A stretch of DNA of 64,000 nt from Haloglomus litoreum (lineage in GTDB: Archaea > Halobacteriota > Halobacteria > Halobacteriales > Haloarculaceae), in the NCBI RefSeq assembly GCF_029338515.1, contig NZ_CP119988.1, forward strand, positions 4,030,001 to 4,094,000, read 5' to 3'. The translations under genes and the position numbers were made by a program. Below are positions 12,949 through 15,068 of the stretch, piece by piece. How positions within the stretch are numbered: the first letter of the stretch is position 1; each line of letters begins with the position of its first letter. The notes beneath the pieces were generated by a model. That model had not been told where the DNA came from. It did no database searches and saw only the letters and a list, made by a program, of their open reading frames with translations.

Positions 12949-13830
12949 ATGAGCGCGGAGACCCGGACGGACGGTGACGAATCGACGGCGGTGGGCGGCC
13001 TCGGCGGGGTGTCGGCGGTCGGCGCCGCGGCGGTCGTGGGGCTGCTCGCGGTCTCCGCGCTGGCGGTCACCGCGGAACTGTGGAAGCTCCTCATCATCGG
13101 CTGGGTCGCGTTCGTCGCGATGGCCGGCGCCGCGCTCCTCGGTAATCGGGCCGCCCGGACCCGCGACGCGTTCGGCCTGGTGTGGGGCTACGGTCTCGCC
13201 GCGGGTGCGATGGTCACCTCCGCCGCCGTCTTCCTCCTGCCGCAGGCGTTCGGCCTCGGCGGGCAGATCGGCGGCTTCGGCGTCGCCGCGGGGCTGCTGG
13301 CGGGCTACGCCTCCCACACCGCCAGCCACCGCCTCGCGCACATCGACGGCGTGAACTCCTCGGCCGTCGAGCTCACCGCACACTCGCTGGCCGCGGGCCT
13401 CATCATCGGCGTCATCTACGCCGCGCTTCCGGACCCCGGCCTCCTGCTGGGACTGGCCATCGTCTCGCACAAGGGGCCGGCGGGCTACGCCGCGGCCCGC
13501 CGCCTGCGCCACGAGGGGCAGCGCATCTCGCTGCTGCTCCTCCCGGCGGCGGGCGTCGCCCTCGCCGCGATTCCGGTCGCCGCCATCCAGCCGCCGCTGT
13601 CGGCGAACGTGAGTGCGGCGGTGTTCGGCTTCGCCGCCGGCATCTTCCTCCACCTCGCGATGGACTTCCTGCCCGAGTGCGAACTCGGCGGGGAGGTCGG
13701 GCAGGTCGCGGAACTGGGGGACATGGACGGCGAGGCCCACCACCTGCTGGACCGACTCCGACTGCACGCCGTCGGGAGCACGGCGCTGGGCGCGCTGGCC
13801 GTCTTCGGTGCGTGGCTCGTTATCGCGTAA
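12949..13830 (+). CDS. ZIP-like family membrane transporter, divergent
   Basis: The 293-residue protein has about eight hydrophobic helices and a layout resembling ZIP metal transporters. Histidine-rich spots include GYASHTASHRLAH, ELTAHSLAAGL and VSHKGPAGYA, at positions where canonical ZIPs carry HNxPEG-type metal ligands. The usual glutamates are absent, so the transported ion or even transport itself is uncertain. A CTATTAAC box centred at 12921 is 28 nt from the ATG, which suggests a leaderless mRNA. Confidence 0.65.
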   Translation: MSAETRTDGDESTAVGGLGGVSAVGAAAVVGLLAVSALAVTAELWKLLIIGWVAFVAMAGAALLGNRAARTRDAFGLVWGYGLAAGAMVTSAAVFLLPQAFGLGGQIGGFGVAAGLLAGYASHTASHRLAHIDGVNSSAVELTAHSLAAGLIIGVIYAALPDPGLLLGLAIVSHKGPAGYAAARRLRHEGQRISLLLLPAAGVALAAIPVAAIQPPLSANVSAAVFGFAAGIFLHLAMDFLPECELGGEVGQVAELGDMDGEAHHLLDRLRLHAVGSTALGALAVFGAWLVIA

Positions 13831-13922
13831 TATTGAATATATCCCGTATAATTTTGATGTTATTAGATAATTTCCCGCATTGATTTCTTATACCCCAACT
13901 GACACGGCAGAGGACAACCAGG

Positions 13923-14038
13923 AAGCCCCCGCGGGCTCGACGTTCCGGGGCTCGCTGCGGTCCTCGGGTTCGCTTCGCTCACCCTGCGGTCCTTGCTTCG
14001 CCCGGGAACGGTCGAGCCCGCGGCCCCTTCCATTCCCA
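13923..14038 (-). repeat. Hairpin-bounded intergenic repeat, copy B (reversed)
   Basis: Read on the minus strand it runs from GGGAATGGAAGGGGCC to GGGGGCTTC and has the same order of elements as copy C: stem arm, CCCGGGCGA, GGACCGCAG, GAGCGAAGCGA, GAGGACCGCAGCGAGCCC, stem arm. The stem is CCGCGGGCTCGAC with its exact complement, against CCGGCCGCTCGAC in copy C. Confidence 0.65.
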
Positions 14039-14314
14039 CCCGTATCGGTTGCCGAAGCTCGCGGTGCCCCTGCCCTTCCCCGCGTCGCGCGGCACTCGGG
14101 CCGTCCGGCCCTCGGCACGCGCTCCCGGCCGGGTGGCGGTTGGTCGGCCGGCCGGTTCCGGGACCAGGAAGCGCGCGGGCGCCACCCGCGGTGAACCCCG
14201 AGGCCTTCGGCCGAGGGGGTGAACCGCTCCCGGCGCCCGCGCGGGGAGGTGTGGGGGCACCCTGCTCGGCCGGAACCACCACGCGCGAACGCTCGGTGGA
14301 ACGGGCAACAGGGC
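14039..14314. other. Structured GC-rich core between inverted repeat copies
   Basis: It contains a perfect 11-bp inverted pair, GCGCGGGCGCC and GGCGCCCGCGC, enclosing two direct copies of GGTGAACC and a central GAGGCCTTCGGCCGAGG hairpin. A separate GGTCGGCCGGCCGG palindrome also occurs. The nested symmetry suggests a folded RNA or a recombination substrate; neither can be confirmed by eye. Confidence 0.4.
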
Positions 14315-14431
14315 GGGACTGAAAGGGGCCGGCCGCTCGACCTGTCCCGGGCGACGTAAGGACCGCAGGCCGAGCGAAGCGAGGCCGAGGACCGCAGCGA
14401 GCCCCGGACAGTCGAGCGGCCGGGGGCTTTC
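14315..14431 (+). repeat. Hairpin-bounded intergenic repeat, copy C
   Basis: It begins GGGACTGAAAGGGG and ends GGGGGCTTTC. The 13-bp arms CCGGCCGCTCGAC and GTCGAGCGGCCGG enclose a segment rich in CGAGCGAAGCGAG-type words. It matches copy B in inverted orientation and copy A at both ends. Confidence 0.65.
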
Positions 14432-14579
14432 TATCCAGCCCCATCACCGTCGTGTCACACATCCGAGCCGTCGAGAGAGTCTCATCCGACTCCACCGTCT
14501 CATTCGTCCCCACGTTCGTCATCAAGAGTGTTCTGCCCCCACCAACACGTTGACGAGACTCCCGCGAGCCACCCGTAGT

Positions 14580-15068
14580 ATGACGCTGGCAGCCGACACG
14601 CGCGAGGCCGTCGACGCGCGGCCGTTCCTCCACGCCGCGCTCCAGGCGGGCGTGGTCAACTACACCGCGGCGGCGCGCTACCTCGACGTGGGCGACGGGA
14701 GCGACGAGGACCACGAGGCCGTCGCCGCCGCGCTCCGGCGCTACGCGGACGAACTCGGGGAGTACGAGCCCACCACCGCCGGGACGAGCGCCCGCGTGGA
14801 GATGCGCTCGGGCGTCGGCCCCACGGACGACCGGGGCGACGCCGTCCTCGCGGTCGGCGGGACCATCCTCGCGCCGACGGGCGGCGACGACACGGCCATC
14901 GTCGCGACCGGCGACCACGACCCGACGCAGCTGGCGGCCGTCCTCGACCGCCTCCGCATCGACGACATCGACGTGCACGCGGCCGGCGCGACCGACGAGA
15001 CGGTGGTCGTCGTGGTTCCGCGGCGCGACGGCCCGACGGCGCTGCGCGTGGTCGAAGAGACGCTGTAA
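14580..15068 (+). CDS. Conserved hypothetical protein upstream of cysS
   Basis: The 162-residue acidic protein has no signal peptide or membrane helix. An N-terminal helical part (TREAVDARPFLHAALQAGVV) is followed by a compact alpha/beta part. Alternating strands such as VLAVGGTILAP and ETVVVVVPR suggest an ACT-like or ferredoxin-like fold. It lies 73 nt before cysS on the same strand, and I recall a similar neighbour in other haloarchaea. Function unknown. The ATG at 14580 is preferred to an upstream basic extension. Confidence 0.7.
   Translation: MTLAADTREAVDARPFLHAALQAGVVNYTAAARYLDVGDGSDEDHEAVAAALRRYADELGEYEPTTAGTSARVEMRSGVGPTDDRGDAVLAVGGTILAPTGGDDTAIVATGDHDPTQLAAVLDRLRIDDIDVHAAGATDETVVVVVPRRDGPTALRVVEETL

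Follow-up and report, generated by a model that had tools for sequence, protein, structure and literature searches.

The half-kilobase element at positions 13921–14431 of the analysed window, a stretch of 64,000 nucleotides from Haloglomus litoreum, is a real composite far beyond chance and belongs to a multi-copy family with about fifty scattered copies in its own genome. With moderate confidence, we read it as a giant REPIN/BIME-like non-autonomous dispersed repeat that would have spread in trans as single-strand hairpins. The host genome is a single contig of 4.70 Mb (G000). The element is flanked there by a ZIP-like gene, whose PF02535 match stayed under the curated cut-off, and by a DUF7523 gene with cysS after it.

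A first-pass annotation had described inverted copies facing each other, and these were found as two arms. The arms were initially estimated at 13920–14041 and 14311–14432 (122 nt, 84% complementary), and their edges were better placed at 13921–14036 and 14316–14431 (116 nt each). They enclose a core as claimed, although the enclosed length of 276 bp became 279 bp with the refined edges. The 11-bp pair (14173–14183 and 14232–14242), the duplicated GGTGAACC (14190 and 14218) and the central hairpin (fold -58.7 kcal/mol, z -4.07, 0 of 200 shuffles as good) reported inside it were all present. The features of the element are as follows.

13921..14036, minus strand: L arm, outward-facing 116-nt hairpin unit (family covariation; match to arm model R3, 7.9e-18; local fold -72.3 kcal/mol, z -5.4)
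14037..14315, plus strand: directional core, about 280 nt in intact copies (alignments A1 and A2; match to core model R1, 1.3e-32 over 14066–14285)
14067..14081, plus strand: conserved block CCCCTGCCCTTCCCC, 5' side of proposed stem P1 (no double changes; covariation gives P1 no support)
14084..14130, plus strand: core hairpin P2, then conserved CTCCCGGCC (double changes in 7 of 11 P2 pairs in compact cores)
14154..14172, plus strand: conserved block GGTTCC...CAGGAAGC, part of proposed stem P3 (no double changes)
14171..14242, plus strand: core hairpin P4, including the 11-bp pair and both GGTGAACC (double changes in 8 of 10 pairs in compact cores)
14243..14256, plus strand: conserved block GGGGAGGTGTGGGG, 3' side of proposed P1 (core alignments)
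14272..14283, plus strand: conserved block GGAACCACCACG (core alignments)
14316..14431, plus strand: R arm, outward-facing 116-nt hairpin unit (R3 match 1.1e-18; local fold -72.7 kcal/mol, z -5.65)

A stretch of 526 nt that includes the element folded with z values of -14.6 and -13.5 on the plus and minus strands, respectively, and 0 of 100 shuffles were as good on either strand. A strong fold alone was not decisive, because a single fold of 526 nt cannot show which stems selection keeps. As had been stated, the element carries no protein frame: its four overlapping ORFs had no Pfam match at E ≤ 0.1, and our own codon-usage gene finder called no gene between 13827 and 14580. Rfam covariance models gave 0 matches at gathering score over the whole window and a best E of 1.3 with lax filters over 13700–14700. 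A third copy in the same annotation, copy A, was probably an interrupted single arm on the plus strand from window position 113 to about 320, with extra palindromic sequence inside (motif and blastn); it had no R3 match at E ≤ 1e-5.

When the element was used as a blastn query, 110 matches were found in its own genome, arm-only and reverse-strand matches included, and the long matches showed about 70–86% identity. R1, a covariance model of the core built from 30 copies, found at least 48, 46, 54 and 9 core matches at E ≤ 1e-3 in G000, G001, G002 and G003, respectively (150 candidates scored in each), some of these being fragments and the G003 assembly being 81% complete. R2, a compact core model built from 15 copies of genera g22 and g4, found at E ≤ 0.01 at least 81, 70, 25 and 23 matches in G301, G213, G026 and G000, respectively, 2–3 in G275, G014 and G015, and none in G022, G058 and G041. 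R2 matched 55 of 392 genomes in an order sample (8 candidates scored in each), a figure that overstates composites, because eight of the 14 loci inspected belonged to family f7, where the core was truncated to its 5' portion and 330 nt of flank on either side contained no arm. These f7 loci (L281, L282, L284, L276, L279, L275, L272 and L283) carry a shorter motif, CCTGCCC..CCCC followed by the P2 hairpin and CTCCCGGCC or close variants, which is intergenic and follows other palindromes. It comes after similar gene ends in L282 and L284, and likewise in L279 and L275, which suggests shared positions.

The arm was more widely distributed. R3, an arm model built from 33 arms, gave at least 93 matches in G000 at E ≤ 1e-5 (150 candidates scored) and matched 233 of 293 genomes of the order, in 71 of 88 genera (13 candidates scored in each). 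All 67 genomes matched in a phylum sample of 392, whose share of other orders is not given, belonged to the same order. Used as queries, the composite found arms in 17 plasmid records and a single arm found them in 26. A phage origin was rejected, with no match to the composite in 50,697 phage records.

Covariation indicates that the arms are hairpins that fold on their own, and very strongly so. In the MAFFT arm alignment A6, double changes occurred in 20 of 28 pairs, 95.9% of cells were paired versus 31–46% when the arms were slid, and 0 of 500 shuffles reached any measure. Arms without large inserts were 96–126 nt long (79 arms, extracted by a pattern that admits about 83–148 nt). Shorter palindromes, such as GCCCTATYCGAG..GATATCC or GAGAGCGAAGCTCTC, are nested in some arms, usually near the tip (e.g., L024, L090, L101 and L110). 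In the compact core alignment A5, double changes were found in P2 and P4 and none in P1 and P3; the latter two stems were predicted and are retained only as conserved blocks. Haloglomus cores showed up to three pair types in P4. The ZIP–cysS copies of three species were 79, 81 and 86% identical, and in G001 the inner GG/CC of P4 was changed to TC/GA and the hairpin above it was replaced. The comparison of this locus in relatives, as the annotation had suggested, thus showed folding that is kept despite drift, with paired changes in P4.

A G-U wobble in the folded strand appears as an A-C mismatch on the other strand, so the two were counted to determine which strand acts, using only pairs whose commonest form is Watson-Crick. 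Read in their own sense, the L and R arms gave G-U:A-C counts of 50:7 and 49:10, respectively (74 distinct rows each), and arms from other genera and plasmids gave 42:10 (41 rows). These alignments were fitted to the model (150 of 154 matches aligned); the unfitted alignment A6 gave 28:2. Each arm being biased to its own sense, the favoured strand of L arms is opposite to that of R arms. In the core, the counts were 23:24 for compact copies (56 rows) and 49:19 for Haloglomus copies (48 rows), omitting two and four pairs, respectively, in which G-U was the commonest form. The Haloglomus bias speaks for a putative plus-strand function of the core, but the compact core does not. Because the copies are related, the cells counted are non-independent events, and the test cannot separate single-stranded DNA from RNA.

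The L and R arms resembled each other no more within one copy than across copies: likeness within versus between copies was 0.738 versus 0.748 for 25 Haloglomus copies (1726 of 2000 permutations at least as high) and 0.754 versus 0.767 for 35 g22 copies (1918 of 2000). Therefore, selection is not maintaining the long stem between the two arms. The nested fold of all 509 bp proposed by the annotation was rejected as the selected structure on this arm likeness and on the wobble bias of the L arm, which is opposite to the core strand, although this stem does form in the minimum-energy fold predicted for the window copy. Opposite biases together with independently varying arms also argue against one RNA that includes both arms, and the earlier suggestion of a single large folded RNA is probably incorrect.

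The order of the arms was fixed. In G000, 26 of the 28 neighbouring arm pairs less than 800 bp apart faced outward, one faced inward and one was tandem; 19 outward pairs enclosed a listed core and five enclosed a linker of 80–81 bp. Beside listed G000 cores, counted at 46 of the 48 core places, all 58 arms faced outward, with 30 of 30 left arms on the minus strand and 28 of 28 right arms on the plus strand. Either part may also stand alone, as 35 of 93 arms had no listed core alongside and 7 of 46 cores had no arm found alongside. In other genera and plasmids, 42 arms were found at 34 loci, and seven of the eight two-arm loci were outward, six of them with linkers of 27–36 bp and the seventh with one of 131 bp. 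TCGGYTGGGGAGG..GTGG, which resembles the 3' part of the core, was seen upstream of some arms, in contexts from other genera and in L095 and L099; there may thus be another type of core to which R1 and R2 respond poorly.

All 47 cores with gene context were intergenic (no predicted-gene overlap above 60 nt), and the strands of the flanking genes relative to the core (13 ++, 12 -+, 12 -- and 10 +-) showed no orientation bias, in a set that includes some orthologues and whose genes were called by our own codon model. These counts give no support to the composite as a 3'-UTR or terminator. Single arms showed an excess of same-strand downstream genes, in 20 of the 25 cases with a downstream call (26 arms), but the question was unplanned, related plasmids were included and no conclusion is drawn from it. 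Six haloarchaeal plasmid records (L254 and L257–L261) carry a single arm about 470–650 bp from an OB-fold 'DNA-binding protein' gene. This lead was rejected: the two genes that were scanned had only below-cut-off OB matches, and the arrangement is taken as a conserved plasmid locus. The annotated gene Halar_0093 (L258:2085-2618), which may be spurious, is antisense to an arm that it overlaps.

Extra terminal units were found outside 25 of 150 arms, mostly 50–60 bp away, versus 1 of 150 for a slightly looser control pattern in the opposite orientation. In L271, one element is flanked on each side by several tandem units of about 50–70 bp, every unit with an arm end. A CRISPR-like reading of the outer tandem units was set aside, and they are read, as yet unproven, as putative hairpin-promoted duplications.

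The best-surviving alternative, though an unlikely one, is a family of structured non-coding RNA genes, in which the plus-strand core, with the R arm, would be transcribed and act as RNA and the repeats would be gene copies. The directional core, covarying P2 and P4, conserved unpaired blocks, wobble excess of Haloglomus cores and fold kept at the ZIP–cysS locus would all suit such genes, but the L arm is biased on the opposite strand, the compact core is unbiased, gene orientation shows no bias with respect to the core and Rfam gave no match. In addition, there was no A+T-rich box upstream of the arm in the 42 arm contexts profiled (A+T 0.28–0.39 per 10-nt bin).

Most copies in the genus were shared. 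G001 and G002 are about 93% identical, and over the 400 kb of each that was compared, 10 of 14 G001 copies and 10 of 11 G002 copies were at shared core sites (a split copy counted once). Among seven G000 copies in the tiles, three were common to both congeners, one was absent from both and three had no two usable flanks. The window copy was common to three species at the ZIP–cysS locus, and the G003 ZIP flank (1.5 kb) had no core match at E ≤ 10 and one terminal motif only. Losses were visible as well: at one G002 site the core was lost between 6-bp repeats, and another G001 copy stood opposite a replaced spacer. The G000 copy at 3911756 corresponded to a short A+T-rich spacer at the G001/G002 site, with no readable duplication. 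The annotation had recommended looking for absence in relatives; element-less sites do exist, but the two aligned presence/absence sites showed neither a clean empty site with restored flanks nor a readable target duplication. Judging from these alignments, gains and losses of copies within the genus look old. Mobility is inferred because the copies are many and scattered; their mostly shared positions leave recent movement without support, which counts against a mobile reading.

A host cis element, whose hairpins would bind proteins to organise the chromosome, act as insulators or define transcript ends, is quite improbable. It would account for the intergenic position of all 47 copies, the many positions shared in the genus and the wide occurrence of the arm, but copies showed no preference for convergent or tandem gaps and varied in presence among congeners, and 60 of 293 genomes had no arm match at threshold (13 candidates scored in each). 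Slightly less probable still is a MITE of a classical DDE transposon with the arms, or sequences just outside them, as terminal inverted repeats, since the inverted arms at both ends, the presence/absence among congeners and the partial conservation of about 85 nt outside each g22 arm (14 copies aligned) are outweighed by arms that are not matched within one copy, arms that occur without core or partner, and the lack of a target duplication at two sites or an autonomous relative in the tiles of three genomes. The partly conserved flanks in g22 (L088–L114) mean that the element there may be longer. The annotation's terminal-inverted-repeat element thus does not hold as a classical transposon, and its wider idea of a mobile repeat stays as our leading reading in another form.

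BOX of Streptococcus pneumoniae is a modular intergenic repeat with predicted RNA structure. By description, our element is alike in its modular, intergenic and structured form and differs in modules and size. Archaeal MITEs are short, non-coding and present in many copies with inverted ends, and these properties are shared, whereas the arms here are independent hairpins that also occur alone and are unmatched within a copy, so that matched terminal inverted repeats were not found. GOLLD, ROOL and OLE are long structured non-coding RNAs. The element resembles them in length, structure and lack of coding, but is dispersed in dozens of copies per genome, has its two arms reading in sense on different strands and matched no Rfam family.

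The closest likeness was to bacterial REP/REPIN sequences, for which passages of PMC3116915 and PMC8266576 describe inverted doublets, singlets, tandem arrays and one-strand recognition, the single-stranded REP being recognised and the iREP not. As far as those accounts go, REPIN/BIME and the present element are both extragenic and present in many copies, with hairpin units as inverted doublets around a linker, singlets and some tandem arrays that take in flanks, and the wobble bias here would fit the one-strand recognition there. The extragenic palindrome with a hairpin and the inverted doublet as common unit were found, but the unit of 20–40 bp and the GTAG/CGTC tag were not. The arm is 116 nt, the arms have internal loops, the core is structured, the host is haloarchaeal and the Y1 association was not significant. 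The flank consensus of 42 arms was CGGGTG upstream and T.G.TGTT-like downstream with no conserved GTAG; some Haloglomus L arms had CTAC/GTAG at the outer end. On this comparison, the element is termed REPIN-like and not a REPIN. The main texts of a REP survey that includes archaea (PMC12306157) and of a GTAG/CGTC survey (PMC3733652) contain no word beginning with 'halo', and no description of the paired-hairpin element was recognised in the literature searched, which covered few subscription papers. Looking there for a named Natronomonas repeat gave nothing relevant.

The REPIN-like reading follows from what comparison showed: a multi-copy, intergenic element of fixed outward order, whose arms fold on their own and favour wobbles on one strand, whose core is directional and contains two hairpins that covary, and which has this copy in three species and later losses. 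Two large outward-facing inverted hairpin units would surround a long linker with its own hairpins, and a putative trans-acting factor would recognise each arm as a folded single strand, either single-stranded DNA present during replication or repair or an RNA copy. The core may be carried along with the arms during spread, and its hairpins and conserved blocks are probably protein-binding sites. The unbiased P2 and P4 stems of compact copies count against this reading in that they give no reason to assume that the core acts as a single strand. No autonomous copy was seen: 400 kb of each of three genomes contained no two arms flanking a gap the size of a gene (motif, groups of up to 700 bp), and G000 arm pairs within 800 bp enclosed none either. 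Of the 22 genomes with five or more blastn matches, 14 had Y1 (PF01797), as did 16 of the other 37 (Fisher p 0.18), and the arm-rich genomes G005, G015, G026, G041 and G058 were without it. For a Y1/RAYT partner this is a weak positive trend that was not significant, and the comparison, by gene presence in 59 genomes, gave no transposase partner for the element. More speculatively, the arm could be an undescribed single-strand mobile hairpin across most haloarchaea and the composite a doublet with a cargo core, mobilised by a recombinase other than Y1-HUH, in an independent archaeal version of the REPIN strategy several-fold larger; we consider this possible but doubtful.

Occurring across most of the sampled order and without an Rfam match where tested, the arm would rank among the commonest unexplained haloarchaeal non-coding elements. 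Arms also flag annotation errors, such as Halar_0093. The element makes REPIN-like single-strand dispersal in archaea, without a Y1 transposase, directly testable.
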